From contig JAGPVP010000045.1 of NCBI GenBank assembly GCA_018066965.1, positions 1 through 57,116 of the forward strand: DNA of 57,116 nucleotides, written 5' to 3'. The position numbers and the translations under genes were made by a program. This DNA comes from Zhongshania sp. (GTDB lineage: Bacteria > Pseudomonadota > Gammaproteobacteria > Pseudomonadales > Spongiibacteraceae). Under the pieces are notes generated by a model that searched no databases, was not told where the DNA came from, and worked only from the letters and a program-made list of their open reading frames with translations. Position 1 is the first letter of the stretch. Each line of letters opens with the position of its first letter. Positions 10,105-27,698 of the stretch are shown here, piece after piece.

Positions 10105-10139
10105 TGCGAAATACGGACAGGCGCTTGCGAAATGCGGAC
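10105..10139. promoter_or_regulatory. 21-base-period direct repeat between divergent genes
   Basis: TGCGAAATACGGAC (10105-10118) and TGCGAAATGCGGAC (10126-10139) match at 13 of 14 positions, spaced exactly 21 bases (two helical turns). It sits in the gap between the leftward oxidoreductase gene and the rightward AraC-type regulator, the classic arrangement for an AraC-family operator. Confidence 0.6.
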
Positions 10140-10172
10140 GCCGGTGATAGTTTGAAAAGAAAAGAGCATTGT

Positions 10173-11189: not shown

Positions 11190-12202
11190 CGTAAATCGCT
11201 GGGATTAACGCCGGTCCAGCGCTTATAGGCGTGGCAAAAACTAGATGAGTCTGAGTAACCTAGTCTCACGGCAATTTCTTCAATCGTGAAGGTGGTGCTT
11301 TGCAAATATTCTATTGCTAGGTTGCGGCGCACATCTTCAAGTATATCTTTGTAGCTGCTGCTTTCTGCGCTTAATTTGCGCTGCACGGTGCGCGCAGTCA
11401 TATTTAACCGTTCGGCAATGGTTTCTAGCGTAAAAATTTCTCTGGGCGACGACAAAATATGATTGCGAATAATATCTGAAAATGTACTGTTTCTAGATAG
11501 CTGAGCACATATTTTTTCACATTGATTACCGTATATTCTCGCGGTTTCTGGTTCTGACTGTGCCAGTGATTGGTATAGCAGTTTACTGTCAAAGGCGTAG
11601 TAATTTTCCGCTGAGTTAAAGTGCACTGGGCATTTAAAATAGTCGCTATATACGTCTGCGTATGAGGGCTTTGCCTGCTTTAAATGGACTTCGAGAACGG
11701 GCAGGTCCTGACCGAGGGCTTCTTTAAAAATGGTATGGGACGCAACTAGGCCGCGATCAATCATGTACTGATAACTGCCGCCAAGGTCTCTGAGTTTTTC
11801 TAGGCTGACATAGGCTCGGTCTCCACGCACGGTGGTGTTCCATAGCATATACGTCCATGTCATTAATATATTTTTGTATAGAACGGTCATGCCTGCCAGT
11901 AGGTTTTCGCTGGTCATAATCGCCAGCCCCAGTAATCCGTAGGCCGATAAGTGATAGCGGCCCCCAACGATCAAACCAATTTCGGGAATATTAATTCCGC
12001 GGATAACTTCTGTGGTGAAGCTCAATTCTTGGTGGGGTGTTAGCTCGTAGGTTGGGTCTTCCAATGCCTGTGCGGGAATGCCGGCCACATCTAGCATCGG
12101 TGCCGGATCGAGTTTGTGTTCCTTTAGTAAGGATATCAAGGGGTTGAGCCCGTAGCTTAGGTGTCTAGCGGGTGGTGTGCTTAATGACGACCTTAGCTCC
12201 AT
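11117..12202 (-). CDS. AraC-family transcriptional regulator, divergent from the catabolic operon
   Basis: 361 residues with the same architecture as its neighbour: PF12625-like N-domain (ARHLSYGLNPLISLLKEH...) and C-terminal AraC HTH (ERLNMTARTVQRKLSAES, 'VRLGYSDSSSFCHAYKRWTGVNPSDLR'), plus a basic 22-residue tail. The ATG has AAGAGA about 9 bases upstream. It diverges from the acyl-CoA dehydrogenase gene, with the repeated TGTCGT element in the shared 148-base gap. It is therefore the best candidate for the activator acting at 7507, 12234 and 16574. That assignment is inferred. Confidence 0.9.
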   Translation of the reverse strand: MELRSSLSTPPARHLSYGLNPLISLLKEHKLDPAPMLDVAGIPAQALEDPTYELTPHQELSFTTEVIRGINIPEIGLIVGGRYHLSAYGLLGLAIMTSENLLAGMTVLYKNILMTWTYMLWNTTVRGDRAYVSLEKLRDLGGSYQYMIDRGLVASHTIFKEALGQDLPVLEVHLKQAKPSYADVYSDYFKCPVHFNSAENYYAFDSKLLYQSLAQSEPETARIYGNQCEKICAQLSRNSTFSDIIRNHILSSPREIFTLETIAERLNMTARTVQRKLSAESSSYKDILEDVRRNLAIEYLQSTTFTIEEIAVRLGYSDSSSFCHAYKRWTGVNPSDLRHRDSAINAERKSDGDTPAQRRKA

Positions 12203-12350: not shown

Positions 12351-13682
12351 ATGTCTACTCAATCAGTCCAAGAAATCGATTTACCCGCTGCCACAGATTA
12401 TAGAAGTTTAGATGCCCCTATTTATTCATGGGACGCAACGCCTAAAGGCAAGCTAACGGTATCTGGTGCGGAAGCGGCCTTGCCTGAACACATTGCTGAT
12501 TTTCAGCAAACGCTGAGAAGTTTTGCGCTCAACGTTATGCGACCTATTGGTATAAAGCTAGATCGTATGACGCCAGAGCAAGTGATTGCTAAGGATTCTC
12601 CATTCTGGGAATTTAGAAAAAAGTATCTGGAGCTTGGCGTGACAGTCGAGGCGCTTGGCGAAATGGAGCCTCAGGAAGCGGCGCTGCTCTTCTCAATTTT
12701 ATTTGAAGAGCTGGGCTACGGTGATGCGGGCCTTGCGATATCGGTTGGTGCGGGAATATTGCCGCAGTGGTTGTGTGCGAAGTTCGGCCGCAAAGATTTA
12801 TTAGACGAGTTCCCAGATGCGGTGCTGGGTTGCTGGGGTATTACCGAGCCAGATCACGGCACGGATATGCTCGACCCAAGCCGTCAAATCGTCTATCCCG
12901 GAAGTTCCTATGGGCGCCCAAACCTAGTTGCAGATTTAACGGGTGATGACATTGTTTTAAACGGTCAGAAATCTGCATGGGTATCTAACGGCGTTATCGC
13001 CGATGTGTGTATTCTTTACTGCGCGGCAGACTCGGGTAATGGCCCATCGGCGACGGAAGGTTGTGCATTGGTGTTTCCAATGAATCTTGTGGGTATTAGT
13101 CGTGGTAAGCCTTTGGATAAGCTTGGGCAGCGAGCTTTAAACCAAGGCGAAATATTTTTCGATAATGTGCGCATCCCTCGCAAATATTTACTGGCAGGAC
13201 CTGAGGATTATCAGCGTGCAGTGTATTGCATTCACGCAGAGGCCAACGCCCTAATGGGCGCAACTTTTACTGGTCTGGCTCAGGCCGCGGCAGATTTAGC
13301 GCTGGATTACGCCCACGAAAGAGTCGCTGGTGGTGTCCAAATTATTCAGCATCAGTCGGTTCGCAGTCGTCTTTTTCATATGTTTAGAAAGGTTGAAATT
13401 TCACGTGCGGTAACTCGGCGCGGCCTCAATTTTAATAATGATCCTCAGCTCGGCACCCCATCGTTGTGTGCGGCGATGTTCTCAAAAACTACCGGCACCC
13501 AAAATGCCTTCGAAGTCACCAGTGATGCCTTGCAGATATTTGGCGGCAATGGTCTGACCAAAGAATATCCCATAGAAAAAATGCTGCGAGATGCCCGCGC
13601 ATCTTTAATTGAAGATGGTTGCAACGAAGTGTTGGCGATCAAGGGCGGCAGCTACCTCATAGATAGCGAAAAACTTTCATAA
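12351..13682 (+). CDS. acyl-CoA dehydrogenase family protein
   Basis: 443 residues, FAD-dependent acyl-CoA dehydrogenase fold. There is an N-terminal helical domain preceded by an extra segment of about 45 residues, then the beta-domain motif 'GCWGITEPDHGTDM' (near 163-176) and 'DALQIFGGNGLTKEYPIEKMLRDAR'. At the usual catalytic-base position of medium-chain enzymes (YEG) the sequence reads 'IEDG', so the base would be Asp or shifted by one. It is the first gene of the rightward block (thiolase and ligase follow within 15 bases each). It probably introduces a double bond into the side chain or ring of a CoA-linked substrate; which substrate is unknown. Confidence 0.88.
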   Translation: MSTQSVQEIDLPAATDYRSLDAPIYSWDATPKGKLTVSGAEAALPEHIADFQQTLRSFALNVMRPIGIKLDRMTPEQVIAKDSPFWEFRKKYLELGVTVEALGEMEPQEAALLFSILFEELGYGDAGLAISVGAGILPQWLCAKFGRKDLLDEFPDAVLGCWGITEPDHGTDMLDPSRQIVYPGSSYGRPNLVADLTGDDIVLNGQKSAWVSNGVIADVCILYCAADSGNGPSATEGCALVFPMNLVGISRGKPLDKLGQRALNQGEIFFDNVRIPRKYLLAGPEDYQRAVYCIHAEANALMGATFTGLAQAAADLALDYAHERVAGGVQIIQHQSVRSRLFHMFRKVEISRAVTRRGLNFNNDPQLGTPSLCAAMFSKTTGTQNAFEVTSDALQIFGGNGLTKEYPIEKMLRDARASLIEDGCNEVLAIKGGSYLIDSEKLS

Positions 13683-13694
13683 GGGGTGGGATCA

Positions 13695-14930
13695 GTGAAA
13701 CAAACTGCTTACGTTGCCGGCGTCGGTATGACGCCGTTTGGCAACGCTATGGATAAAACCCTTAACGAACTGGCGTGCGCTTCTATGAAGGATGCCTTGC
13801 AAGACGCGGGTATCAACAAAGAGGATCTAAATGCCGCGTATATGGGCAATGCTGCGGGGGCGGTGATAACGGGTCAGGTTTGTGTGCCGGGTCAGGTTGC
13901 TTTGCGCAGTATGGGTATTAGCAAAATTCCGGTCATTAATGTCGAGAATGCCTGCGCGACGTCAGCTACTGCATTTCAACAAGCCTGCACCATGGTTACC
14001 TTGGGTGTCTACGATGTGGTCTTGGTCTGTGGTTACGAAAAGCTTTATCACCAAGATAAAAATAAAACATTCTCGGTATTTACCGGTGCGATTGATGTAA
14101 CTCAAACCGACGCCATTGCCGCGCGCTTGCAGGCGCGTAATGACGCCATTGGGCAACCCTTAGATATGTCGGGTGCAGGTAGTAGTCGATCTATCTTTAT
14201 CGATATATATGCAACATGGGCTCGGGAGCACATGCATCAGTACGGCACAACTAGAGAGCAATTGGCGGCGGTGTCTGCCAAAAATTCGGTGCATGGCAGT
14301 TTGAATCCAAAGTCACAATTCCAGAATGTAATCACTATTGAGGACGTCTTGGCGGCACGTGAAGTGGTGGCGCCGTTAACGCTACCGATGTGCGCACCAA
14401 TAGGTGATGGTGCGGCAGCGGTAATTGTTGTTAGTGAAAAATTCGCGAAGAAGATGGGGAAGAAGCGCTGTATTCGCGTCAATGCCTCTAGTCTCCACAG
14501 CGGTTGGGATGTCGGTGAGGGGGAGCGGCCGATGGTGTCTAGCGCCGTATCTGAATTGTATGAGCAGGCTGGCATGGGAGCGGAAGATCTCAATTGTGTT
14601 GAGTTACATGATGCCTCTGCGATATCGGAAATTAAATATTACGAATTTTTAGGTTTGTGTGAAAACGGGGCGGGTGGTGAGTTTGTCGCTAGCGGTGCAT
14701 CGTCATTAGGTGGGCGGGTACCGGTAAATACATCTGGTGGCTTAATGCGTAAAGGCCACCCAATAGGGGCAACCGGCGCAGCACAAATTGTGGAGCTAGT
14801 GATGCAGCTGCGTGGCGAGGCCGGGGCTCGTCAAGTAAATGGGGCTAGGGTTGCTCTCGCGGAAAACGGCGGTGGCTATATTGGAACGGATGCCGCTGCA
14901 TTGGTGCTAAGCATTTTGTCAAAAGAATAA
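13695..14930 (+). CDS. thiolase, SCP2/SCP-x-like acetyl-CoA acyltransferase
   Basis: 411 residues. The nucleophile Cys is in 'VENACATSATAFQQA' (near residue 89), with 'VELHDASAISEIKYYE' near 305 and 'GHPIGATGAAQI' near 355, as in the SCP2-type thiolases that cleave branched or bulky 3-ketoacyl-CoAs, such as sterol side chains. The chosen GTG at 13695 has AAGGGG 8 bases before it; a GTG three codons upstream would sit within the ribosome site. Adjacent to the dehydrogenase (12-base gap) and ligase (13-base gap), it should carry out the C-C cleavage step of the pathway. Confidence 0.88.
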   Translation: MKQTAYVAGVGMTPFGNAMDKTLNELACASMKDALQDAGINKEDLNAAYMGNAAGAVITGQVCVPGQVALRSMGISKIPVINVENACATSATAFQQACTMVTLGVYDVVLVCGYEKLYHQDKNKTFSVFTGAIDVTQTDAIAARLQARNDAIGQPLDMSGAGSSRSIFIDIYATWAREHMHQYGTTREQLAAVSAKNSVHGSLNPKSQFQNVITIEDVLAAREVVAPLTLPMCAPIGDGAAAVIVVSEKFAKKMGKKRCIRVNASSLHSGWDVGEGERPMVSSAVSELYEQAGMGAEDLNCVELHDASAISEIKYYEFLGLCENGAGGEFVASGASSLGGRVPVNTSGGLMRKGHPIGATGAAQIVELVMQLRGEAGARQVNGARVALAENGGGYIGTDAAALVLSILSKE

Positions 14931-14943: not shown

Positions 14944-16548
14944 ATGAAAGACCTCAGAATATTGTCAAATTTGATTGAAGATAAAAAAAATTCTAATCCA
15001 AACTTGGATGTGCTGACTTTTGTGAACGTACTGCCCAGTGGAGATTTGGAGCACGAAATACGAACCTACAATGATCTTTGGGAGCAGGGGCAGAGGGTGT
15101 TTTCCGGCTTGCGTAACGAAGGCATGGCGCCGGGTGAAAGTTTTGCGATGGTGATGCAAAATCATCCGGAATTTGTAGATTGCATGGTCGGTAGCTCGCT
15201 TGCTGCTACGGTGTTTGTGCCTATTGACCCGCGCACAAATGGCGAGCGATTGGAGTACATGCTGAGTTGGTCTGATTGCAAAGGTGTTGTTTGTGCAGAC
15301 TATTGTCTTAATGCTGTGTTAGCGGCTTGCAAAAATTTACCACAAATTCGCTGGATATGGGTTTTGCATAGTGGCGAGCTAATAAAATTACCTGCCGGCG
15401 ATTCACGGCTAAGAAAGTGGGCTGACATTGCAGGTGCTCCACTTAAAGAAGTTGAAGGGCGAGTACGCAGTGCCGATGAAACCATGCAGATGTTGTACAC
15501 CTCTGGCACTACCGGCGATCCCAAAGCAATCAGGGCGCCTTATACACGCTATGACGCAGTCTCTTCCATTGGGCCAATGATAGGTCTTGTCGAGAAAGAC
15601 CGTCCTTACACTGGTCTATCTTTTACCCATGCAAATGCGCAGCTCATCAGTTTGGGGAATATTCTGAAAATGGGTTTGCGAGGTGTTATTAGTCGCAAAT
15701 TTACCAAATCGAGATTGTGGGATATTTGCCGTGCTTATGGCTGTACCACCTTTAATTTACTGGGTGGTATGACTACCGCAATTTATAGCGAACCGCTTCG
15801 TGCAAATGATGCGAATAATCCGGTACGTTTTATTTTAAGCGCAGGTATGCCAGCGGCAATCTGGAGGGAGTTTAGTAAACGTTTTGACGTTGAACTTTTT
15901 GAATTCTACGGCGCTGCTGAAGGGGGCATGATGTTTAACCCGCCAGGGGTGGGGCCGATAGGCAGTATCGGCAAGCCACCGCCAAGTTTAATCGCGCGCA
16001 TTATAGATGAAGAGGGTAATACTTGTCCGCCTGGTCAGCGCGGCGAGATTGTATTCGAGGCGGCCAGCGGCGAGGAATTGGCGATTGAATATTATAAAAA
16101 TCCCGAGGCCTCAGATAAAAAAGCCCGCAATGGCGTTTTATATATGGGCGATATTGGCCATCAGGATGAAGATGGCTGGTATTACTTTGATAGCCGCAAG
16201 GGCGATGAGATACGTCGCAATGGTGAGTTTGTTGATATTGCTAAGATAGAAAAAATAATTGCTGAATTTGACGATGTTGAAGATGTGTTTGTTTACGGTA
16301 TTCCTGCCCTAAACGGTGCTCCCGGCGAAAAGGATGTTATTGCGGCAGTAGTGCCGGTTGAAGCTAAGTTGTTTGACCCCGATGTGCTAGTTAGGCATTG
16401 CAGAGAGGTCCTAGGGCGCAATGATCTTCCCAGTTATATTCAAGTTATGTCTGAAATACCAAAGACGGCATCAGAAAAACCGCAATCTAGATTTTGCTAT
16501 GAATATTTTTTAGAGCAAAAAAATCACGTCTATGATGTGGCGTCATAA
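14944..16548 (+). CDS. AMP-forming acyl-CoA ligase (CaiC/steroid-acid-ligase-like)
   Basis: 534 residues. Adenylation motifs in order: 'MLYTSGTTGDPKA' (near 182-194), 'FEFYGAAEGGMM' (near 318), 'MGDIGHQDEDGWYYFDSRKGDEI' (near 403), and the catalytic lysine in 'PKTASEKPQ' near the C-terminus. It would activate a carboxylic acid to its CoA thioester using ATP. The substrate is not readable; relatives act on carnitine-type acids, fatty acids and bile acids. ATG with GGGATGA upstream. Last gene of the first three-gene transcription unit before a second regulated promoter. Confidence 0.9.
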   Translation: MKDLRILSNLIEDKKNSNPNLDVLTFVNVLPSGDLEHEIRTYNDLWEQGQRVFSGLRNEGMAPGESFAMVMQNHPEFVDCMVGSSLAATVFVPIDPRTNGERLEYMLSWSDCKGVVCADYCLNAVLAACKNLPQIRWIWVLHSGELIKLPAGDSRLRKWADIAGAPLKEVEGRVRSADETMQMLYTSGTTGDPKAIRAPYTRYDAVSSIGPMIGLVEKDRPYTGLSFTHANAQLISLGNILKMGLRGVISRKFTKSRLWDICRAYGCTTFNLLGGMTTAIYSEPLRANDANNPVRFILSAGMPAAIWREFSKRFDVELFEFYGAAEGGMMFNPPGVGPIGSIGKPPPSLIARIIDEEGNTCPPGQRGEIVFEAASGEELAIEYYKNPEASDKKARNGVLYMGDIGHQDEDGWYYFDSRKGDEIRRNGEFVDIAKIEKIIAEFDDVEDVFVYGIPALNGAPGEKDVIAAVVPVEAKLFDPDVLVRHCREVLGRNDLPSYIQVMSEIPKTASEKPQSRFCYEYFLEQKNHVYDVAS

Positions 16549-16743: not shown

Positions 16744-19203
16744 ATGAATACAATAAGAAACAGAATAGCGATGGCTGTTTTGGAGAACCGAAAAGCGGCT
16801 TGGTTCCTATTTGCGGCTGTCACAATATTCTTTGCTATGGGTCTAAAGAATGTTGAATTGAAGACGATATTCTCGGATTTGCTGCCCAAGGATGATCCGT
16901 TTATTCAGGTGTTTAAAGATCATCCTAATTTTGGTAATCCGCTGACCTTCACGCTAATGGTAAAAACCAAGAGTGGTGATATTTATAACGCAGAAACCTT
17001 AGATAAAGTATGGCAGCTTACCCGTGATATCGATTTGTCGCCTGGTGTAGATCACGATCAAATTTTATCTATAGCTTCGGCAAAAGCGCGTTACGCGGAG
17101 GCGACGCCGTTTGGTATAGATGCTCAGCCATTAATGGGCGATTCAGTTCCTGTTACTGAGGAAGAAATTGCTAGGTTCAAAGAGAATGTGCGTAAGTCGC
17201 CCAATGCCCAGCAGTTTCTTATTTCTGGCGACGAAACTGCAACGTTAATATCAGCAACGTTTATAGAGCAGCGTTTGGATTACGGTGAGGCCTTCACTTT
17301 CGTTAAATATCTGGCTGACACTGCTCGGGATGCTAACCACGATGTATATATGGCTGGGCAGCCAGCGTTAACGGGTTGGGTATACGAATACCAGCATCAA
17401 ATGATTGGCATCTTTGGTATTACATTGGGTGCCTTGGTTATTGCTCTTGTGCTTTATACCCAAAACATTGCAGGCGTTGTCACACCCGTTTTCGCAAGTA
17501 TTGTGGCAGCGATTTGGGGTTTCGGTTTTGCAGGTTGGATGAAGCTGCCCATAGAGCCCTTGTTAATGATTGTGCCACTGCTTTTGATCGCGCGATCATT
17601 TAGCCATTGCGTGCAATTTACTGAACGCTTTTACGAAGTGTTCGCACAAGTGGGCGATAAAGTACGGGCAGCCGGCATCACTACTGGGCTGATGTTAGCA
17701 CCGTCGATACTAGGCATTATCACCGACGCGGCAGGTATCTTTTTAATTTCCATTGCGCCTATTCCTGCGATGGAGCGCTTCTCTTTGTTCTGCGGATTTT
17801 GGGCAATGATGTTGGCGCCCACCGGTGTATTCCTTGCGCCGCTGTTGTTGTCGGTATTACCTGCGCCTAAAAATCTCGACAAGATTATTTCTGATGAGTC
17901 GGGTGGTGTGCATGGCAGGGTGAAGTCTGTATTGGCATGGATCGCAACCTTTTCCCAGGGTAAGCGGGCGCGTTATACCACGGTTGTTGTCGTCATTATT
18001 GCGGCCTTTTCTTTCTATCATTCTATGCGTATTCAAATCGGTAATCCCGTCGAAGGTAGTAATCTGCTGTGGGAAGACTCTGAATACAATGTGTCAGTTT
18101 CAGAGATTAATCATCATTTCCCTGGGGTAAATACCCTAGAGGTTATCCTTGAAGCAAAGGATTCAAACAATCCCAATCGGGTGGCTCGTCAGGCTGAAAC
18201 TGTGGCTACCATGTTGCAACTTCAAGCCATTATGGAGGGTGGTGAAAGCGCGCCGCGGGCAACACTTTCCTTTGGTGATTTTTTGATGGACGCCAATCGC
18301 CTGATTTCCGGCGGTCACCCTAAGTGGTTGCCATTGGATAATACCGACTCGGCGGTGAACGCGGCAACGTCGGCGGTACTCATGGGTACTAGCCCAAAAG
18401 CCTACTCTCACGTTGTCGATTTTGAATTACAAAATTCTACGGTATCTTTTTGGTATCCAGACAATAAGCAGGACACCGTCGATCACGCACTAGCCTCCGC
18501 AGAAGCTGCTATCGCCATAGTGGGTATAGATCACTCAGATTTCACCGTTCGCCTTGGTAGCGGCACCATTGCAATACAGCAGGCTATAAATCATGTGGTT
18601 GAGCGTTATCACTGGTTGATTATGGGCTTGCTAAACCTCGTTATTTTGCTGGTGTCTAGCTACGCCTACCGCTCATTGGTAGCAGGTGTGGTGCTGCTAA
18701 TTCCTGTAAACCTTTCCAATATGATTCTCACCACTTGCATGTCCTTTATGGGAATTGGCTTAGATATTAACTCGTTGATGGTGGCGGCAATCGGTGTGGG
18801 CGTTGGTATCGATTACGGTATTTATTTGCTGAGCAGAATGTGTGAGGAATATCAGGAGCGCGAAGATTACGGCGAATCTATCACCGCAGCGCTAACGACC
18901 ACGGGTAAGGCAATTATGTTTACCGCCAGCATCATGCTGATCGGGATTCTTCCTTGGTATTTTCTTTCTGGACTTAAATTCCTCGCTGATATGGGTTTGC
19001 TACTGGTGCTGGTCATGTTGATCAATATGGTTATCGCGCTTGTGGTTTTGCCCTTGCTGGTGTGGCTCATCAAGCCAAAGTTTGTGTCGAGTAAAGACAT
19101 TATGGTTCTAGGTGAAGGGGTAGACATTGCCAAGCTAATGGCGGAAGACGCCGAAAAAAAGCAGGCAATGAATCACAATAATTTAAAGGCCGAAGCACTG
19201 TAA
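16744..19203 (+). CDS. RND/MMPL-family transporter
   Basis: 819 residues, RND superfamily of the MMPL (COG1033) type. One N-terminal helix (about 20-36) is followed by a periplasmic domain beginning 'SDLLPKDDPFIQVF', helices at about 220-370, a second large periplasmic loop, and helices at about 625-800. A proton-relay-type motif 'GVGVGIDYGIYLLSRM' is in the second half. Such proteins move hydrophobic or lipid molecules across or out of the inner membrane and work without a classic MacA/AcrA adaptor; none is encoded here. The downstream genes would provide periplasmic and outer-membrane partners. Direction of transport is not known. Confidence 0.85.
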   Translation: MNTIRNRIAMAVLENRKAAWFLFAAVTIFFAMGLKNVELKTIFSDLLPKDDPFIQVFKDHPNFGNPLTFTLMVKTKSGDIYNAETLDKVWQLTRDIDLSPGVDHDQILSIASAKARYAEATPFGIDAQPLMGDSVPVTEEEIARFKENVRKSPNAQQFLISGDETATLISATFIEQRLDYGEAFTFVKYLADTARDANHDVYMAGQPALTGWVYEYQHQMIGIFGITLGALVIALVLYTQNIAGVVTPVFASIVAAIWGFGFAGWMKLPIEPLLMIVPLLLIARSFSHCVQFTERFYEVFAQVGDKVRAAGITTGLMLAPSILGIITDAAGIFLISIAPIPAMERFSLFCGFWAMMLAPTGVFLAPLLLSVLPAPKNLDKIISDESGGVHGRVKSVLAWIATFSQGKRARYTTVVVVIIAAFSFYHSMRIQIGNPVEGSNLLWEDSEYNVSVSEINHHFPGVNTLEVILEAKDSNNPNRVARQAETVATMLQLQAIMEGGESAPRATLSFGDFLMDANRLISGGHPKWLPLDNTDSAVNAATSAVLMGTSPKAYSHVVDFELQNSTVSFWYPDNKQDTVDHALASAEAAIAIVGIDHSDFTVRLGSGTIAIQQAINHVVERYHWLIMGLLNLVILLVSSYAYRSLVAGVVLLIPVNLSNMILTTCMSFMGIGLDINSLMVAAIGVGVGIDYGIYLLSRMCEEYQEREDYGESITAALTTTGKAIMFTASIMLIGILPWYFLSGLKFLADMGLLLVLVMLINMVIALVVLPLLVWLIKPKFVSSKDIMVLGEGVDIAKLMAEDAEKKQAMNHNNLKAEAL

Positions 19204-19276
19204 TAAACGATTTTTTACTGTGCTTCCACAATGCGCAAGATGACAACAATAAAAGGGTTTATCCCGGAGGAATGTT

Positions 19277-20656
19277 ATGCACATCAAGAAATATGATACC
19301 AACTACAGTCGTCGTCGTTTCATGGAAAATACGATTAAAGGTATTGGCGCGGGCGGCGTGTTAGCGCCACTGTGGCCGCTTATCGCTAATGCGGGAGATG
19401 TTAGTAAGGCTTACCCAGACGAGTTACTGTCTATTGAAATGTACACCAAGGGCAAGGTGAAGCCCGGCGATATTATAACCGCCGATAATGTTGAATATGT
19501 GAAAGAGCTGTTAGACCCAATCGCCTATATGCACGTTAAGGAGATGGGTCGTCGAATTCATATTGTTGAGCCGGTTAAAGATATCAGTCGCATTTTTCCC
19601 ACCGAATACTTAGAGGCGACACTCAAAAATCAAGGTAAGGCTGTCATAGGTAAAGATGGGAATGTGTATACCAAGGCTGGCGAACCTTGGATTGGCGGCA
19701 CACCTTTTCCTGAACCTAAAAATGGGGTTGAAGCGCAATATAATTTGACCCTGAGTTGGGGGCGCCACGATTATTCTCAATATGCAGTGCGCGATTGGGA
19801 TATAGATTCCTCTGGCGAGCTGTCTTATCAATATGATTTTGTGTGGACAGAATTAAATACCACCGCACGCACCGACGGTACGGTTTGGAAGGGTAAAAAG
19901 GATTTACTGCGTTACCAGTCAGTATTCTTTACTGCGCCAAATGATAGTGCCGGTACGTCCTTCTTAAATATTTGGGATTACGACCAACGTAAATTTCCAG
20001 AGTTACATGGCTATATTCCGGCATTCCGTCGTGTTCGCCAGTTCCCCACCAATCAACGTTTTGAACCTTTAGTGCCAGGGATCACGCTATTTTTATCTGA
20101 TGCATGGGCAGCGGGCGATCCACTGCAAACGTGGGGTAATTACAAAATCATTGGTCGCCAACCTATGTTGGGTGCCATTGGGTCTCGGAATTTCCACGGT
20201 GGTTATCACGATAACTGGGAAAAGCCCGTTCATGGTGGGCCAAAGGATCAAACCTTCTTTGATACCTATATGGAGTTAGTGCCCGAGTGCATCGTGCTCG
20301 AAGCCGAGCCAACGGGCTACGCACGTGCGCCGGTAGGTAAAAAGCGTGTTTGGATTGATGTGCGAAACCAGATGTATGTCGGTTACGTTATTTATGATCG
20401 CCGCGGTGAAATGTGGAAGTCGTTTGAGCCGCACTATGCAATGCAGGACAACGACAAAATGACTCGTAATGACGGCTCCCACCCAGCGTGGTCTTGGTCA
20501 AGCGTACACAGTCATGACATCCAATCAAATCGCATGAGTCGCTTTGTGCAAGCGAAGTCAGTGACGGGTGGTTATCAAAGTAATTACGACCCAGGTGATA
20601 TCGATGTCTTCAATAAGTACCTCACTATTCAGGCCATGCAGCGGCTTGGGGGTTAA
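19277..20656 (+). CDS. DUF1329 protein with Tat signal (copy 1)
   Basis: 459 residues. The N-terminus carries a twin-arginine signal, S-R-R-R-F-M at residues 11-16, followed by a hydrophobic stretch ending 'WPLIANA-GD', so it is predicted to be exported folded. The mature part is DUF1329, a family related to the LolA/LolB lipoprotein-carrier fold (conserved 'AYPDELLS', 'PWIGGTPFPEPKNG', 'QRFEPLVPG', 'YDRRGEMWKSFEPHYAM'). GGAGG precedes the ATG. It lies 73 bases after the RND gene. It probably carries a hydrophobic ligand across the periplasm. A second copy is at 23650. Confidence 0.88.
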   Translation: MHIKKYDTNYSRRRFMENTIKGIGAGGVLAPLWPLIANAGDVSKAYPDELLSIEMYTKGKVKPGDIITADNVEYVKELLDPIAYMHVKEMGRRIHIVEPVKDISRIFPTEYLEATLKNQGKAVIGKDGNVYTKAGEPWIGGTPFPEPKNGVEAQYNLTLSWGRHDYSQYAVRDWDIDSSGELSYQYDFVWTELNTTARTDGTVWKGKKDLLRYQSVFFTAPNDSAGTSFLNIWDYDQRKFPELHGYIPAFRRVRQFPTNQRFEPLVPGITLFLSDAWAAGDPLQTWGNYKIIGRQPMLGAIGSRNFHGGYHDNWEKPVHGGPKDQTFFDTYMELVPECIVLEAEPTGYARAPVGKKRVWIDVRNQMYVGYVIYDRRGEMWKSFEPHYAMQDNDKMTRNDGSHPAWSWSSVHSHDIQSNRMSRFVQAKSVTGGYQSNYDPGDIDVFNKYLTIQAMQRLGG

Positions 20657-20657
20657 T

Positions 20658-21608
20658 GTGATTACGGTAGCGAAGATGGCTAAATATACTGCTCCCTTGG
20701 TATTAAGTTTTGCAATGGCGACTGTAAATGCAGCGCCATTGCAGGGCGACATGGTCAATAAGGGGCATGCGCATGAGGCGTTGTTTGGCGTTAATGCCAG
20801 CGCCGATGGCCTTATTGCAGTGGGCGGTGCGGGACAGATAAGTAGCAGCAAAGACGGTATTACGTGGCAGCGGGTAAATGTCGATCTTGCTGGTCGTTCC
20901 TTGCTGGCAGTGTCTGACGTTGGCGGCAATGCCATTGCCGTTGGCCAGCAGGGTGTCATCGTTCGTCGTAATGCAGATACGTGGCAGGAGCAGGAGTCAC
21001 CAACAACGGAGCGTTTGTTTTCGGTCGCCCAAGATGGTGCTGGATTTGTGATTGCCTCTGGTGGTTTCGGGACAGTTCTGCGCTCAGTAGACAGTGGTAA
21101 AAGTTGGGAGAAGTTGCTAATAGATTGGCAAGAATTGATTGGTCAGTCTTACGAGCCCCATGTTTATAACGTTACCGTTGATGGCCGGGGCCGAGCGTAT
21201 ATGGCGGGGGAGTTCGGCATGATTGCGCGCTCCGACGATCAGGGTAAATCTTGGCAAGCATTGCATAGCGGTGATGAGTCGCTATTTGGTTTGGCCTTCG
21301 GTGATCGTGGTCTTGGCTACGCGGTAGGTCAGAGCGGCACCATTCTGCGCAGTGTAGATGGTGGCGACAGTTGGTCAAAAATTGAATCTGGTAGTGATGC
21401 GATTTTATTAGACGTCTCTGTTCGCAGCGATGATCGCGCCGTGGTTACAGGGATTCGTGAGGCCTTGTCGATTGAGGCTGGTGGGCAGCGTGCCGAGCGC
21501 TTAGATAATTCGCAATTATTGGATTCATGGTATTGCGATGTTGGTGTTTATAAAGGTGATTTCTATGTGGTTGGGCAAAAGGCCAATGTTCTAAAACTCT
21601 CTATTTAA
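20658..21608 (+). CDS. YCF48-like beta-propeller protein, exported
   Basis: About 316 residues. A signal peptide (AKYTAPLVLSFAMATVNA) is followed by repeated propeller blades with the YCF48/BNR pattern: 'GQISSSKDGITWQRV', 'GTVLRSVDSGKSWEKL', 'GMIARSDDQGKSWQAL' and 'GTILRSVDGGDSWSKI'. In photosystems YCF48 is an assembly factor; in proteobacteria these proteins sit beside RND, DUF1302 and DUF1329 genes and probably help assemble the complex. The start is GTG 20658, two bases after the preceding stop with GGGGG upstream; ATG 20676 is an alternative that keeps the signal peptide. Confidence 0.82.
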   Translation: MITVAKMAKYTAPLVLSFAMATVNAAPLQGDMVNKGHAHEALFGVNASADGLIAVGGAGQISSSKDGITWQRVNVDLAGRSLLAVSDVGGNAIAVGQQGVIVRRNADTWQEQESPTTERLFSVAQDGAGFVIASGGFGTVLRSVDSGKSWEKLLIDWQELIGQSYEPHVYNVTVDGRGRAYMAGEFGMIARSDDQGKSWQALHSGDESLFGLAFGDRGLGYAVGQSGTILRSVDGGDSWSKIESGSDAILLDVSVRSDDRAVVTGIREALSIEAGGQRAERLDNSQLLDSWYCDVGVYKGDFYVVGQKANVLKLSI

Positions 21609-21632
21609 AATATCTTCTGGAGATTTACGGGT

Positions 21633-23540
21633 ATGAAAAATAATAATCAGCTGGCAACAGCTATTACCCTTGCGACACTCGGATTAAGTAACCCTGCGTG
21701 GTCGGCGAATGGTGAACTATTCGGGATTGATTATAGTTCTAGCGGTTTTATTCGCGTTGAGGCAGCTGCAAAAACAGTTGGCGAAGAAAATCCATTTAAT
21801 CAGCGCGGTAACGTCTTTAATGGCGAAGCAGTCGATCGTAATGGTGGCGTTAATGCCGGTACTTTACTTGGCTTAAATCTGCCGTTCTCTGTTGGTTTAC
21901 CTCTCACTGATTCGGCAACACGTAATGGTGAGCAAGCAAATAATGATTTCAATTTTACCCAAGTGCGCTTGGAGAATACTTTGCAATTGCGCTTCAGCGA
22001 TAACTGGTCGGCCACTGCGAAAATTCGAGGTATTTTTGATGCCGCGCAGTATGATGAATTTGACCCAAGTAGTGTAAATAGTAATGCAGCCGGTTTTCTT
22101 TATGGCGAACCCAATTATTTTGAATACGACGACTATAAAACCGGCGGCGAGCAAAATCGCCTAGAGGTTGCTGGTGATAATTACATGGTCGATTTTCCGT
22201 CGTTATATGTAGATTATCAGAACGGACCGATACTGGTTCGTGCGGGTAACCAGCAAATCGCATGGGGACAGGCTTTATTTTTCCGAGTAATGGATGTCGC
22301 TAATGGTCTAGATTTGCGTCGCCATTTGATTTTAGATTTCGCCTCTGAGGAATACGCGGACGAGCGAATTTCCTCCCCAGCAGTAAGGGTGTCTTACCAG
22401 CTAAACGCTAGTTGGGAGTTAGATATGTTTGCGCAGGCATTTCAGCCAACTATCTACGCTAATCCGAATACCCCTTATAACGTAATACCTAGTCAGTTTA
22501 CTGTGCATGATCGATACAGCGATGCGAATGAAAAAATTAACAGCGGGTTTCGTTTGAAGGGCAATATCGGCGATTTCGGCTTGCAATTTATGTACACCAA
22601 TCGTTACAACCCTGATGGGGTAATTCGCTGGACAGCATCGAATGTAAATCGCGATGCGCCTGGGATCCCCGGCAGCGGCTTAATATTATCTCAGACGCCG
22701 CTTGAAATTGATCCAACCGGTGTGTGGAGCGCTGAGGAGTGGTTTACCTATGCAGGTATGGCAAGGCTGGATGGTGTTGAAGGTCTAAATAAATTAATTA
22801 CAGATTTCCCAGCGTCACAGCTGCTGTTGGCAAGACCGGTAAACGGTATTGCTGCTGCTAAAGAAGAACTCGATTTGTTCTTTATTCTCACCGGCGGTGC
22901 GGGAAGTGTCGTCACAGGCAATGGCATGGGTGGTTTGCGCGGGCATATCGAACGGGAATATAAAAGAGAAGATATTTTTGGTACTGGTTTTAGCTACATT
23001 TTTAGTGGGGAGCCTGGTAGCTGGTTAGACCAATTAATACTTAACTTTGAGGTTTCCTTTACACCGGATCGAGTATTTACTTCGCCAGACCTAGGGCAAG
23101 ATTACCTAGTTGAAGATGAGTATATTTCGGCCTTAGTTTTAGAAAAGTACCAGCGCTTTAGTCGTAGTTTCCCAGCAACTTACTTTGTTTTCCAGTGGAT
23201 GCACCGTACCGAAAGTGATTTGTTCGGTCGTCATTTGAGTGGAATGGGTGGGACAGTGAATAACGCGCCAGAAGGGGTTGATGGCTGGGATGGCTTGGTG
23301 TTGGCTCTACAACAACCTTTCCCCGGCTTAGTATGGCGCGCGGATCTCTCCGTGTTATACGACACTCGCGGTGGAATTTTTGTTCAGCCCGCGTTGAAGT
23401 GGAAGCCGAGCGGCAACTGGAATATTGAAGCTTTCTATACTTATATTGATGACGACATTAGCTCCAATGCCAATGAAAATATTATGCAGACCTTTGATTG
23501 GGCTGAGGAGTTTGGCTTAAGGGTAGCCTACCAGTTCTAA
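21633..23540 (+). CDS. DUF1302 outer-membrane protein
   Basis: 635 residues. A signal peptide ends near 'NPAWSA-NG'. The rest is rich in alternating aromatic/hydrophobic strands with 'GFIRVEAAAKT', 'NTLQLRFSDNWSATAKIRGIF', 'VRAGNQQIAWGQALFFRVMDVANGLDLRRH' and a C-terminal Phe (LRVAYQF), as expected of an outer-membrane beta-barrel of the DUF1302 family. It would be the outer-membrane gate or porin for the hydrophobic substrate handled by the neighbouring RND and DUF1329 proteins. An intrinsic terminator follows the gene although the block continues. Confidence 0.85.
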   Translation: MKNNNQLATAITLATLGLSNPAWSANGELFGIDYSSSGFIRVEAAAKTVGEENPFNQRGNVFNGEAVDRNGGVNAGTLLGLNLPFSVGLPLTDSATRNGEQANNDFNFTQVRLENTLQLRFSDNWSATAKIRGIFDAAQYDEFDPSSVNSNAAGFLYGEPNYFEYDDYKTGGEQNRLEVAGDNYMVDFPSLYVDYQNGPILVRAGNQQIAWGQALFFRVMDVANGLDLRRHLILDFASEEYADERISSPAVRVSYQLNASWELDMFAQAFQPTIYANPNTPYNVIPSQFTVHDRYSDANEKINSGFRLKGNIGDFGLQFMYTNRYNPDGVIRWTASNVNRDAPGIPGSGLILSQTPLEIDPTGVWSAEEWFTYAGMARLDGVEGLNKLITDFPASQLLLARPVNGIAAAKEELDLFFILTGGAGSVVTGNGMGGLRGHIEREYKREDIFGTGFSYIFSGEPGSWLDQLILNFEVSFTPDRVFTSPDLGQDYLVEDEYISALVLEKYQRFSRSFPATYFVFQWMHRTESDLFGRHLSGMGGTVNNAPEGVDGWDGLVLALQQPFPGLVWRADLSVLYDTRGGIFVQPALKWKPSGNWNIEAFYTYIDDDISSNANENIMQTFDWAEEFGLRVAYQF

Positions 23541-23595
23541 TACCTACCCTGCCGGGGCGAGTACTCGGCTTTGTCCGCGTAATTACGGGACCTTT

Positions 23596-23621
23596 CCGGC
23601 GGGATTTCCCGCCGGCTTTTT
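23596..23621 (+). terminator. strong intrinsic terminator inside the gene block
   Basis: CCGGCGGG (23596-23603) pairs perfectly with CCCGCCGG (23608-23615) around a 4-base loop and is followed by CTTTTT. It lies 55 bases after the DUF1302 stop and 29 bases before the second DUF1329 start. There is no room for a new promoter, so downstream genes depend on read-through. Confidence 0.85.
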
Positions 23622-23649
23622 CGTCGGCCCTTCGTCGCTAGGAATCGTC

Positions 23650-25026
23650 ATGGTATTTCACATAAAGCAATACGATCGACATTACGCAAGACGGCAGTTT
23701 TTAAAAAAAACGGCGGGACTTGCCTTGGGCGGCTTACTAATGCCGGTATGGAAGGCAATGGCAAATAATGGCGACTTCACTGCGGCCTATCCTGATGAGT
23801 TGTTGTCGATTGATGAGTACAGTGGCGGTAAATTAAAAGCGGGTGATTACATAGACGCTAGTAATGTAGAGCTAGTTAAAGATTTATTGGAACCCGTTAA
23901 GTATTACCAAATTAAAGAAATGGGTCGTCGTTTACGACTGAGGGAAACGACCCGCGACATAATGAAATTAAGTCCTTGGGAGTATCTTGAGGCAAGCTTT
24001 AAGAATCGTGGACAGGCAAAATTTGATGATAAGGGAAATGTAGTCACATTAGATTGTAAGCCTTGGATTGGTGGTCTGCCTTTCCCTGAAGCAAAGAACG
24101 GCTTGGAATTGTTCGCCGGTTTAACCATGAGCTGGGGCCGGCACGATGCGTCTTTTTACGCCATTCGCGAATACGATTTAAGTCGTGAAGGCAAAGTTAA
24201 TTACCAGTATGAAAATGGCTGGGCTGAATATGCACCCACTGGCAGAGTGGTGTTGCCAGGGGTGTACTGGAAAGGCCATGAAGACAAGCTGCGCTATCAA
24301 AGTGTGTTTTTTTCCGAGCCTGACAGTGTGCGTGGCACGTCGTACTTAAATATATGGCATTACGATCAGAATAAATTTCCTGAACTATATGGCTACATTC
24401 CAGATTTTAAACGTATTCGACGCTTTCCTACCGATCAGCGCTTTGAGCCTTTGGTGCCAGGGTCGAGCTTGTACTTATCAGATGCCTGGGCGGCGGGCGA
24501 CCCACTCCATACATGGGGTAATTACAAAATAGTATCTCGCGGGCCTATGTTGGCTGCGGTGAGCGGCGGTTGGAATTCGGCCAGTGAGAGCTGGGCACAT
24601 ACTACCCACGGCGGTCCTAAAGGCGAGACATTTTGGGATACCGACGTTGAGTTGGTGCCTGAGGCCATAGCGGTAGATGCGGAGCCAACGGGTTTCCCAC
24701 GCGCACCAGTCGGTAAAAAACGCGTATGGTTTGATGCTCGTACTCAGCTACCGCTAGGTATGGTGTCTTATGATAGACGAGGTGAAATTTTCCGTTCTTT
24801 TGATGGCGCTTACGGTCTGTATGAAGACGGTGACAAGCGAGTAATGGACGGCAAACATCCTTATTGGTCTTGGGGTCATGTTCATGCGTTTGATGTGCAA
24901 ACAGGGCAGATGACGCGCCTTGAGCAAATGGCCAGCATGAGTGGTGGTCACAAAATGATGGTGAATGATCAGGATATATACGACCGCTATTTAACCAATG
25001 GCGCGTTGCGGCGCTTAGGTAATTAA
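23650..25026 (+). CDS. DUF1329 protein with Tat signal (copy 2)
   Basis: 458 residues, a clear paralogue of the protein at 19277. The two share 'AYPDELLSI', 'KEMGRR', 'PWIGG.PFPE.KNG', 'SWGRHD', 'LRYQSVFF', 'QRFEPLVPG', 'LSDAWAAGDPL.TWGNYKI' and 'EAEPTG..RAPVGKKRVW'. It again has a twin-arginine signal, A-R-R-Q-F-L-K-K (residues 13-20), then 'LALGGLLMPVWKAMA'. The ATG has GGA 7 bases upstream and comes right after the intrinsic terminator, so its expression is probably lower than that of copy 1. Likely a second periplasmic carrier with different ligand or partner preference. Confidence 0.87.
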   Translation: MVFHIKQYDRHYARRQFLKKTAGLALGGLLMPVWKAMANNGDFTAAYPDELLSIDEYSGGKLKAGDYIDASNVELVKDLLEPVKYYQIKEMGRRLRLRETTRDIMKLSPWEYLEASFKNRGQAKFDDKGNVVTLDCKPWIGGLPFPEAKNGLELFAGLTMSWGRHDASFYAIREYDLSREGKVNYQYENGWAEYAPTGRVVLPGVYWKGHEDKLRYQSVFFSEPDSVRGTSYLNIWHYDQNKFPELYGYIPDFKRIRRFPTDQRFEPLVPGSSLYLSDAWAAGDPLHTWGNYKIVSRGPMLAAVSGGWNSASESWAHTTHGGPKGETFWDTDVELVPEAIAVDAEPTGFPRAPVGKKRVWFDARTQLPLGMVSYDRRGEIFRSFDGAYGLYEDGDKRVMDGKHPYWSWGHVHAFDVQTGQMTRLEQMASMSGGHKMMVNDQDIYDRYLTNGALRRLGN

Positions 25027-25053: not shown

Positions 25054-26046
25054 ATGACACAGACTTATAAAGCACTGGTAGCAAAGCGTTTGGACGGAAA
25101 ACTGGCGGTAGGTTTTGAACAGTTGAGTGCGGCCGAAATTGGTGAGGGCGATGTGGAAATTGCGGTTGAGTATTCAACCTTAAATTACAAAGATGGTTTG
25201 GCCATGAGCGATGCCATCCCGATTGTTCAGCAAGACAAATTAATACTCGGTATTGATATGGCCGGTACCGTTGTCAGTTCAGATAACTCCCGTTTCAGTG
25301 TCGGCGATAAGGTTGTATTGAATGGCTATGGCGCATCAGAAACTCATAACGGCGGTTATACCCAACGTTTGCGTACAAAAGGCGAATACTTGGTGAAGCT
25401 GCCGGCAGGTATAAGTACTCGTCAGGCAATGGCCATAGGCACCGCTGGCTACACTGCCATGTTGTCGGTCATGCGTTTGGAACGTCTTGGCGTGGTGCCA
25501 GAGTCTGGTGTTGTTTTGGTAACAGGGGCGTCTGGTGGTGTTGGTACCGTCGCGATTTCTTTGCTGTCTGCCTTAGGGTATCGCGTTACGGCATCGACAG
25601 GCCGAATGGAAGAGGCAGATTTTTTAAAGAGCCTTGGTGCAAGTGATGTTATTAATCGCGCCGAGCTATCTGAGCCAGGTGAAATGATGCAGGCCCCGCG
25701 ATGGGCGGCTGCGGTAGATTCTTGCGGTAGCCATACCTTGGCAAACGTGATTGCGCAGCTGCATTACAGTGGTGTGGTAACAGCCTGCGGTTTGGCTCAG
25801 GGTTTAGATTTACCTAGCAATATGATGCCGTTTGCGCTGCGCAATGTGTCGTTATTAGGTGTGGATTCAGTTCATGCGCCTATGCCTTTACGAGAAGAAG
25901 CGTGGCGCAGATTGGCGAAGGATTTAGATATGGCCAAGCTAGAAAGCTTGTTGGTGAATATCCCCTTTGATGATGTGCCGGCGGCCGCCGGTAAAATTCT
26001 ACAGGGACAAATTCGCGGGCGAGCTGTCGTCGAAATTGGATCTTAG
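25054..26046 (+). CDS. acuI: YhdH/AcuI-type NADPH-dependent enoyl-CoA (acryloyl-CoA) reductase
   Basis: 330 residues, medium-chain reductase without the zinc ligands. Motifs: 'EYSTLNYKDGLAM', 'GIDMAGTV', 'GDKVVLNGYG', 'IGTAGYTAMLSV', nucleotide-binding 'VTGASGGVGTVAISLLSALGY' and 'ACGLAQGLDLPSNMMPFALRNVSLLGVDSV'. It follows AcuI/YhdH along its whole length. Known members reduce acryloyl-CoA to propionyl-CoA. No DMSP-cleavage or demethylation genes are nearby, so here it may reduce an enoyl-CoA made in the local pathway or detoxify acryloyl-CoA. AGAGGT precedes the ATG; it follows DUF1329 copy 2 by 27 bases. Confidence 0.85.
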   Translation: MTQTYKALVAKRLDGKLAVGFEQLSAAEIGEGDVEIAVEYSTLNYKDGLAMSDAIPIVQQDKLILGIDMAGTVVSSDNSRFSVGDKVVLNGYGASETHNGGYTQRLRTKGEYLVKLPAGISTRQAMAIGTAGYTAMLSVMRLERLGVVPESGVVLVTGASGGVGTVAISLLSALGYRVTASTGRMEEADFLKSLGASDVINRAELSEPGEMMQAPRWAAAVDSCGSHTLANVIAQLHYSGVVTACGLAQGLDLPSNMMPFALRNVSLLGVDSVHAPMPLREEAWRRLAKDLDMAKLESLLVNIPFDDVPAAAGKILQGQIRGRAVVEIGS

Positions 26047-26091: not shown

Positions 26092-26913
26092 ATGAGTAAT
26101 GAGCTTGCCGTTTTTGGTTTAGAGAGTAAGGTCGCGGTGGTGACGGGTGCCGGCGGTGGTATTGGGGAGGCTTGCGCGCGGATGTTTGCAAAGGCCGGCG
26201 CCGCCGTAATGCTAAGCGATATAAATATAGAGTCTTGCGAGCGCATTGCAGCGGATCTCAATGAGCAGGGCTTGCAGGCGAAGGCTATACGGTTAGATGT
26301 GACGAGTGAGGAAGATTGGGCGGCATTAAAGCTGGCGCTGCAAGATTGGAAAAACCGCTGGGATGTATTGCTTAATAACGCCGGTATTTATATTGGTGGC
26401 TTGCTAGAGAGCAACACCAGTGCGCAGGTAAGTAAGATTAATCAAATTAATATTGAGTCGGTATTTCTTGGTACGCGAGCAGCGGCTGAAAGCATGAAAC
26501 CGGGCGCTGCTTTCGGTCAGGGTGGCTCTATTATTAATTTGTCATCTATTGCAGGTTTGGTTGGCGTGCCTGGTCATAGTATTTATGGTGCAACGAAAGG
26601 TGCGGTTCGCTCTTTAACTAAACACAGTGCTGTAGAGTTTGCCAAATTTGGTTATGGGATTCGTGTTAATTCTCTGCATCCCGGTTTAATAGAAACCGCA
26701 ATGGGCGATCAAGCTTTGCAAGACTTTGTAGACATTGGCGTGGTTGCCAATGTCGAAGAAGCAGCGGCGCTGCTTAAATCGGCAATGATACCGATGGGAC
26801 GTTTGGGCAATGTGCAAGATATTGCGAATGCCGCGTTGTTTTTGGCGTCGGATGCGAGTTCCTACGTGACGGGCATTGAGCTAACAGTCGATGGCGGCTT
26901 TTGCGCTGCGTAA
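26092..26913 (+). CDS. short-chain dehydrogenase/reductase 1
   Basis: 273 residues, classical SDR: cofactor motif 'TGAGGGIGEACA' (near 20-31), 'DVLLNNAG', catalytic Ser in 'IINLSSIAG', Tyr/Lys in 'YGATKGAVR', and C-terminal 'SSYVTGIELTVDGGF'. An Asp at the end of strand 2 (MLSDINIES) favours NAD(H). The closest kinds are 3-ketoacyl and hydroxysteroid dehydrogenases. AAGGA upstream. It pairs with the next SDR, which resembles it over the full length. Confidence 0.88.
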   Translation: MSNELAVFGLESKVAVVTGAGGGIGEACARMFAKAGAAVMLSDINIESCERIAADLNEQGLQAKAIRLDVTSEEDWAALKLALQDWKNRWDVLLNNAGIYIGGLLESNTSAQVSKINQINIESVFLGTRAAAESMKPGAAFGQGGSIINLSSIAGLVGVPGHSIYGATKGAVRSLTKHSAVEFAKFGYGIRVNSLHPGLIETAMGDQALQDFVDIGVVANVEEAAALLKSAMIPMGRLGNVQDIANAALFLASDASSYVTGIELTVDGGFCAA

Positions 26914-26927
26914 TACAAGGAGATTTT

Positions 26928-27698
26928 ATGTCTTGTCAGGGTAAGGTCGCATTGGTTACGGGTGCCGGTGTAGGTATAGGGGAAGCGACATGCAGAGGCT
27001 TAGCCGCAGCCGGCGCTGTTGTTGTGGTTAGTGATATTGATGAGGCGTCAGGCAGTCGAGTTGCGAATGAATTAAATGCTGCCGGCCATCAAGCGATTTT
27101 TATGCGTTTAGATGTGTGTGACGAGGCTCAGTGGCAGGCGGTAGTCGCGGAAATTGTCGCTCGCTTTGGCGGCTTACAGATTTTGATTAATAACGCCGGT
27201 ATCGCCAATATCTGTGGGATTGAAGATGAGACTTTGGCTGGTTGGCGAAAAACCAACACGATCAATAGTGATGCGGTATTTCTTGGTACGCGGGAAGCGA
27301 TCAAGGTGATGAAAGAGTCTGGTGGAAGCATTGTAAATATTTCGTCGATAGAGGGAATTGTCGGTGATCCAATGCTGCCAGCCTACAATGCCAGTAAAGG
27401 TGCGGTGCGCGCGTTTACAAAATCCGTCGCCTTGTATTGCGCAGACAAAGCTTATTCCATCAGAGTCAATTCTGTGCATCCCGGTTATGTGGCCACGCCA
27501 TTAGTAAGTGGCGCCTTGTCGCGGTTAAGCAGTAGCGACGCCGAGGCATTCGCTCAGCGCGTTGTCGCCAGTATACCGATGGGCCGTATGGCAGAAGCTG
27601 CCGAGATTGCCAAGGGTATCGTATTTCTGGCGTCCGATGATGCGAGCTATATGACGGGCTCGGAGTTGATTATGGATGGCGGTTACACGGCGCGTTAA
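26928..27698 (+). CDS. short-chain dehydrogenase/reductase 2
   Basis: 256 residues, classical SDR: 'TGAGVGIGEAT', 'VVSDIDEAS' (Asp, NAD-type), 'LQILINNAG', 'IVNISSIEGIVG', 'YNASKGAVR', and 'ASYMTGSELIMDGGY'. ATG 26928 with AAGGAG upstream is preferred over an in-frame ATG nine codons earlier that overlaps the preceding gene without a ribosome site. A tandem pair of similar SDRs would allow two alcohol/ketone steps, or both faces of one hydroxyl, as in bacterial steroid pathways. Last gene of the rightward block. Confidence 0.88.
   Translation: MSCQGKVALVTGAGVGIGEATCRGLAAAGAVVVVSDIDEASGSRVANELNAAGHQAIFMRLDVCDEAQWQAVVAEIVARFGGLQILINNAGIANICGIEDETLAGWRKTNTINSDAVFLGTREAIKVMKESGGSIVNISSIEGIVGDPMLPAYNASKGAVRAFTKSVALYCADKAYSIRVNSVHPGYVATPLVSGALSRLSSSDAEAFAQRVVASIPMGRMAEAAEIAKGIVFLASDDASYMTGSELIMDGGYTAR

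Follow-up and report, generated by a model that had tools for sequence, protein, structure and literature searches.

Can a single run of genes supply a route by which a hydrophobic compound crosses every layer of a Gram-negative envelope, and what sets its carriers apart from others of their fold? The question is raised by five genes at positions 16744 to 25026 of a stretch of Zhongshania sp. DNA (GenBank assembly GCA_018066965.1, contig JAGPVP010000045.1, positions 1 to 57,116; this whole stretch of 57,116 nucleotides (nt) is called the window below). All on the forward strand, they encode an inner-membrane RND/MMPL transporter (16744..19203), a LolA-like carrier of family DUF1329 (DUF1329a, 19277..20656), a YCF48-like propeller (20676..21608), a DUF1302 outer-membrane barrel of porin type (21633..23540) and a second LolA-like carrier (DUF1329b, 23650..25026). 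Pfam searches returned the families named in a first-pass annotation of the sequence, and the families of all five genes bear out its idea of one part for each envelope layer. The two carriers score 216.7 and 188.1 bits against PF07044 (gathering cut-off 23.1), and the DUF1302 protein exceeds the PF06980 gathering score and is modelled as an outer-membrane barrel. A four-part trans-envelope conduit of this kind has already been published, as a transporter, efflux or tolerance system (PMC6394551, PMC10866462, PMC13101534). What a literature search lacking most subscription papers did not find in print is a class of paired carriers fixed on twin-arginine translocation (Tat) type leaders, with a conserved leader and terminator-like hairpins between the genes.

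Tat signal peptides follow a consensus with an S/T-R-R-x-F-L-K-like motif in the n-region. The signals of both carriers fit it, with SRRRFM in DUF1329a (twin arginine, RR, at residues 12-13, codons 19310..19315) and ARRQFLKK in DUF1329b (RR at 14-15, codons 23689..23694). Among the exported proteins of the array only these two have Tat-type signals, the YCF48 and DUF1302 proteins having, by eye, leaders of the general secretion (Sec) type; for YCF48 this follows from a re-estimated start at 20676, which is the more likely one. The PF07044 profile was run against 143 genomes from the class and 249 from the phylum. Full-length matches form a high-scoring group (about 300-560 bits) and a lower one (about 140-260 bits), beside many short LolA-like matches below 60 bits; the lower group comprises the clade of the window and some Sec-type proteins (L031 and L033, for example). 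Membership of the clade was assigned by profile score, never by RR. Dropping loci with identical C-terminal 300 amino acids (aa) reduced 107 clade loci to 97. Close relatives are over-represented among the named loci, which are the best 80 of 398, the closest of them being that of Zhongshania aliphaticivorans BC9_2A (98% to DUF1329a).

The twin arginine is present in all 87 clade representatives at 85% identity and in all 157 clade rows (156 by pattern, L141 by eye). These 157 rows form one clade (100 in the Shimodaira-Hasegawa-like approximate likelihood ratio test, SH-aLRT) with 34 Sec-type rows outside it; our trees come from a quick method that gives SH-aLRT supports only, and carry long-branch warnings. 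An alternative would be that the RR is decorative, the signals being normal Sec peptides with two arginines by chance in the basic n-region. Sec n-regions are indeed basic too, and among 74 non-clade N-termini inspected (the 34 full-length rows and 40 from the phylum sample) 15 contain RR within 70 residues of the called start. However, information content in the clade is 4.32 bits at positions 12 and 13 and 0.72 at position 14, so that the arginines are invariant while the residue after them is free, and F or L comes next as the Tat consensus has it. The h-regions are also less hydrophobic than those of Sec-type relatives (mean hydropathy 1.52 +/- 0.21, n=157, against 2.14 +/- 0.27 for the 57 of 73 Sec rows having the anchor motif; Mann-Whitney p 4e-24, kinship ignored). 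Only three of the 74 outsiders match RR-x-[FLIVM] (L015, L050 and L179), and the cores of L015 and L050 are strongly hydrophobic and Sec-like by eye. Decorative arginines thus seem extremely unlikely. Within our sampling, the Tat-type leader is a mark of one DUF1329 clade and is never missing there; judged from sequence such leaders are well supported, and the proteins would presumably depend on Tat in fact. The first-pass annotation had read both signals in this way, which the clade-wide invariance and the less hydrophobic h-regions bear out.

The only outsider read by eye as Tat-type is L179, a high-scoring canonical DUF1329 protein from another class of the phylum, with the leader DRRSFVKG; such leaders therefore have at least one further origin. 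The pattern search also marked L035 as Tat, which was rejected since its RR lies only within an over-long N-terminus (at 564 aa, the length filter kept this protein out of the 34 rows). As to a ligand or cofactor bound before export, which the first-pass annotation put forward as a possibility, no cysteine stands among the invariant or near-invariant columns of a 69-row alignment of the carriers.

The two carriers differ in what precedes the arginines. Position counts are based on the 90 of 108 copies with a clear leader position (53 of a, 37 of b), and conservation on the 30 a, 33 b and 54 Sec sequences left after thinning at 80% identity. Over the 12 residues up to RR, copy a is conserved at 3.36 bits as against 3.24 in its mature part, compared with 2.25 and 3.27 bits for copy b, and 1.48 (signal) and 2.56 (mature part) for Sec relatives; from the alignments, this conservation of the a leader is unusual in a signal peptide. 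In 52 of the 53 a copies the nearest start codon located 6 or more residues upstream stands exactly 11 residues ahead of RR, the consensus being M-[HR]-I-[RK]-K-[YF]-D-x-[DN]-[YF]-[SG], with I at -9 and K at -7 in 52/53 and D at -5 in 51/53. The codons of this leader vary silently while its residues stay fixed, which puts the constraint on the peptide. Residues 1-27 have low confidence in the DUF1329a model, which places the leader outside the monomer core. A peptidase-like A-x-[AS] occurs in the expected stretch of 32/53 a and 25/37 b copies (46 and 36 in a looser form). We suggest, tentatively and as an unlikely outcome, that the a leader is either kept, docking the carrier on a complex of RND and YCF48, or read by a dedicated factor that would gate export until the carrier is folded, paired with b or loaded. 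If true, the DUF1329a leader would be more than an export tag and the system a Tat-gated lipid or substrate shuttle; we know of no LolA-type carrier with Tat-gated shuttling.

The pairing of the carriers is itself old. Downstream of DUF1302, 58 of 60 copies fall within one clade of 63 rows (SH-aLRT 99; the exceptions are L138 and L154), and it is well supported by the tree that both carriers stem from one old duplication in which b arose from the stock of a copies. The order RND-a-YCF48-DUF1302-b is clean in 53/97 loci and is common to gamma-, beta- and alphaproteobacteria. No b copy lies downstream in 14 arrays with at least 5 kb past DUF1302 (L084, L087, L088, L092, L094, L095, L097, L098, L107, L108, L121, L125, L126 and L148); five of 19 candidates had been dropped, in L085 because b overlaps in a long frame, in L133 because b precedes DUF1302, in L152 because the locus is rearranged, and in L136 and L144 because no RND or YCF48 gene was seen. 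In each of the nine genomes with such a-only arrays PF07044 has 4 to 20 matches, short ones included, and the partner may therefore lie elsewhere in the genome. Fourteen to 20 matches per genome were seen in G409, G410 and G405. Sec-type arrays are often arranged otherwise, as DUF1329-YCF48-RND in 15/34 loci, with DUF1302 upstream in L011 to L013 and other orders in L038, L049 and L071. The transporters also group together: 77 RND proteins of Tat arrays and one from a broken array labelled Sec form one group of 78 (SH-aLRT 100).

The module is accessory, and multiplied in some relatives. DUF1329 proteins of the clade occur in only 13 of the 21 genomes of the window's family, which is why we regard it as accessory. 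Two further arrays lie in the same assembly, on contig C102 (RND 56 to 57%, DUF1329a 47% and DUF1329b 59% identical) and on contig C120 (RND 95% identical, similar flanks). As the assembly has 6.07% contamination and the nearest rows of these arrays (L008, L009) in the trees are G150/G151, that of the window being G148, both may come from a second strain and are not relied on as copies of the same genome. Among relatives in its genus whose contamination is about 1%, some have two arrays (G146, G150, G151, G154, G162) and others three (G147, G156), flanked within each genome by different genes. On contig C31 of the window's assembly (L010), two distant RND genes stand beside a short LolA-like protein. 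Plasmid-borne arrays are seen in Methylibium petroleiphilum PM1, whose megaplasmid RPME01, typed conjugative, bears two converging Tat-type arrays (L195, 15599-34406). The annotation of one shows all five parts; that of its neighbour gives DUF1302 a length of 459 aa, not 616, with an IS3 element behind the gene. Each of the four DUF1329 leaders on this plasmid contains SRR.

Another shared feature lies between the genes. We counted as hairpins perfect stems with 6 or more pairs and a T-rich tail, excluding gaps below 30 or above 400 nt and noting that gap ends depend on estimated starts. They occur in 28/52 DUF1302-DUF1329b gaps and 18/61 DUF1329a-YCF48 gaps, and in none of the 69 RND-DUF1329a and 62 YCF48-DUF1302 gaps; shuffles keeping base content give 0.2 to 0.5 hairpins per gap set. 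Frequencies are 18/21 and 6/11 for the two hairpin-bearing gaps in the window's family, and 10/31 and 12/50 outside it, with stems that vary in sequence and position between loci. In the window the hairpin CCGGCGGG-ATTT-CCCGCCGG (23596-23615, forward strand), followed by CTTTTTC, lies between DUF1302 and DUF1329b, and the DUF1329a-YCF48 gap of 19 nt has none. A general terminator scan of 12100-29100 gave 19 sites against 18.5 in shuffles, no excess, so that the case for the hairpins rests on the comparison across loci. We read them as attenuators or 3' stabilisers that lead to unequal gene doses. In the proteome of the benzene degrader ORM2, the DUF1329 protein of a related cluster has the most spectra (158, against 106, 65 and 60, the last for the MMPL protein; PMC13101534). 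This fits carriers made in excess, though spectral counts reflect abundance only roughly and the genes of that cluster stand in another order.

In the RND protein, an Asp-Tyr pair in the second half (D690-Y691) is kept in all 76 array RND proteins aligned and in 21/21 from Sec arrays. The matching stretch of the first half, helix numbers being assigned by motif, has no Asp and instead holds R284, S287, H288 and Q291, of which the last three do not vary in either set, R284 being fixed in Tat arrays (76/76) as against 5/21 in Sec arrays. Since pumps of the MmpL3 type have the pair in both halves, the coupling may be asymmetric in this protein. Its top NCBIfam match is TIGR00921 (HAE3), at 157.9 bits with a cut-off of 351.9. 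Distant matches to the lipid exporters HpnN (30.6 of 751.85 bits), MmpL3 (29.3 of 1400) and BstA (20.8 of 1400) raise the alternative that the array exports an endogenous lipid to the outer membrane, the enzymes beside it making or modifying that lipid, and LolA itself moves lipoproteins outwards. All three scores are nevertheless far below the curated cut-offs, the adjoining enzymes look degradative, and the absence of a clade match from 8 of the 21 genomes of the family would not suit a housekeeping lipid, which makes an envelope-lipid exporter very unlikely.

The LolA-like carrier fold proposed at first is recovered in the structure model of DUF1329a, in which about residues 146-458 form the LolA/LolB half-open beta-barrel. 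The protein departs from LolA and LolB in having about 100 extra residues between leader and LolA-like part, a leader of Tat rather than Sec type, and no lipoprotein partner seen. By sequence DUF1329a has no close solved structure, with weak matches to 9tp6 (E 0.021) and 2pli (E 0.44), and the same search with the DUF1302 protein gave two unrelated-looking entries only (E 0.093 and 0.23). A helical insertion at about residues 366-421 of the DUF1302 protein sits inside the barrel sequence.

The array stands in a same-strand catabolic run. Upstream are genes, identified like the rest by Pfam, for an acyl-CoA (coenzyme A) dehydrogenase (12351..13682; same cluster at 18/97 loci), a thiolase of lipid-transfer type (13686..14930; 22/97), whose top NCBIfam match, 'lipid-transfer protein', scores under the cut-off, and an AMP-binding acyl-CoA ligase (14944..16548; 15/97). 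Downstream follow an AcuI/YhdH-family enoyl(acrylyl)-CoA reductase (25054..26046; TIGR02823, 401.9 bits with a cut-off of 297.25; 13/97) and two short-chain dehydrogenases (26092..26913 and 26901..27698, the start codon of the latter provisional). Two AraC-type regulators precede the run, one (Arabinose_bd and HTH_18) at 10092..11189 on the forward strand and one, divergent from the catabolic genes, at 11117..12202 on the reverse strand. At least one of ten catabolic families lies near the array in 71/97 Tat loci (61 without the zinc-type reductase) versus 4/34 Sec loci, a comparison in which Tat loci supplied the ten families and Sec loci span less sequence. The catabolic setting of the window is found also in Azoarcus and Aromatoleum, and the association with CoA ligase, dehydrogenase and thiolase noticed in the window alone thus recurs in distant genomes. 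We take Azoarcus Aa7 to be a bile-acid degrader, which is a hint at a steroid substrate that we do not press into a claim; a literature search on RND, LolA-like proteins and steroid uptake found nothing.

A second frequent setting comprises hydantoinase A genes (25/97 loci). In Parvibaculum the arrays adjoin hydantoinase A, hydantoinase B and a ligase of ACAS_N type, taken to be like acetoacetyl-CoA synthetase, and as a guess this could be a ketone-carboxylating pathway; a search for literature on Parvibaculum, DUF1302, hydantoinase, ketone carboxylase and acetoacetyl-CoA synthetase together found nothing. Such genes recur beside the Tat-type arrays of L109, L110, L112, L118, L119, L123, L124 and others, and hydantoinase A is seen in Solimonas too. 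Frequent neighbour clusters such as L110:1-1722 and L085:11228-12310 have no Pfam match and were set aside as antisense shadow frames. Several arrays per genome with differing neighbours, the PM1 megaplasmid and the 4 to 20 PF07044 matches of a-only genomes together make the pattern one of dedicated routes, in which arrays are multiplied, plasmid-borne or joined to different catabolic genes.

Among the closest published systems is AmeABCD of Castellaniella defragrans, in which DUF1302, DUF1329, COG4447/YCF48 and HAE3-type RND proteins are encoded beside hydrocarbon-degradation genes (PMC6394551). DUF1302, DUF1329, YCF48 and RND proteins are likewise co-encoded in the window and the catabolic setting is shared. 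The order there is DUF1302-DUF1329-YCF48-RND with one DUF1329 gene, which is an order found among our Sec-type arrays, whereas the window has RND-DUF1329a-YCF48-DUF1302-DUF1329b with two Tat-type copies; because of this order and the second carrier we class the array as a variant rather than placing it in the Ame lineage. In Pseudomonas putida, PP_0765 (DUF1302), PP_0766 (DUF1329), PP_2018 and PP_2019 are needed for growth on Tween 20, and co-folding gave weak DUF1329 contacts with barrel and transporter and a strong PP_2018-PP_2019 contact (PMC10866462); judging by locus numbers, these pairs lie apart, with one DUF1329, unlike the single array with two in the window. The ORM2 'Nanopod' cluster co-encodes DUF1329, YCF48, MMPL and a porin-like protein, in a member of the Desulfobacterota, with one DUF1329 and no Tat claim in the available part of PMC13101534. 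Its name led us to consider nanopod or vesicle biogenesis, an idea that was dropped; the available text of PMC3958437 has neither DUF1329 nor DelCs14_1722. A DUF1329 deletion impairing growth on phenanthrene is known to us from the account in PMC13101534 only and is not used as evidence. Our literature search, which misses most subscription papers, found none joining twin-arginine with DUF1329, PF07044, COG4447 or COG1033.

On balance we lean towards the array being a Tat-dependent, two-carrier variant of the Ame-type system, for uptake of a hydrophobic growth substrate that is activated with CoA. The substrate would enter through the DUF1302 barrel and be picked up in the periplasm by DUF1329, which would hand it to the RND protein; this would move it into the inner membrane at the expense of the proton gradient, and the CoA ligase would trap it in the cytoplasm, where the neighbouring enzymes would oxidise it. 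NPC2 is a soluble carrier that hands sterol from the lumenal side to NPC1, a member of the RND superfamily, and this hand-over offers a likeness by analogy only. DUF1329b could serve as a second relay, b working on the barrel side and a next to the pump, with YCF48 as a scaffold on the RND protein. Both carriers would fold in the cytoplasm and leave by Tat, and downstream of an internal terminator gene dose would fall, which in the window concerns DUF1329b. We infer in what order the substrate is handed over, what YCF48 does, how the hairpins act and that export depends on Tat.

Some observations weigh against this proposal. No TatC was found in the window's own assembly, which also speaks for decorative arginines; because TatC is present in 20/20 relatives searched and the assembly is 84% complete, we read this as an assembly gap. 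Another is the ameABCD deletion study of a related set, which argues for efflux and tolerance: the deletion lowered monoterpene tolerance and raised net Nile Red influx in cells treated with CCCP (carbonyl cyanide m-chlorophenylhydrazone), and the authors' reading is efflux (PMC6394551). Applied to the window, the RND protein would export hydrophobic substrates or toxic intermediates, with DUF1329 and YCF48 as adaptors and DUF1302 as exit channel, and a regulon study in betaproteobacteria likewise proposed the four-part system for coping with toxic aromatics (PMC6449761). The DUF1302 model resembles the exporter AlgE as well as porins, and RND proteins are usually exporters. Yet no TolC-type channel is among the 50 structural matches listed for that model, none of the five array proteins matches an adaptor family, and neither a membrane-fusion protein nor a TolC-type channel has a Pfam match in the 20 proteins scanned in and around the array. 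Moreover, what transposon and fitness experiments on relatives show is lack of growth on the substrate, as for P. putida above and for an ameB transposon mutant, in which growth on monoterpenes needs the gene (as told in PMC6394551), and the arrays multiply with different catabolic genes. Efflux is therefore somewhat unlikely here and uptake the likelier of the two directions; we infer both direction and substrate class, as did the first-pass annotation in proposing uptake of a hydrophobic acid.

Little is understood of how Gram-negative bacteria bring very hydrophobic nutrients through both membranes and the periplasm between them. The clade described here offers a small, recurring module with a testable role for each part; it is carried partly on plasmids and occurs in genera with a record of degrading hydrocarbons. 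A LolA-type clade fixed on Tat-type leaders would be, in addition, a rare case where the export route may tell how a lipid carrier is readied.

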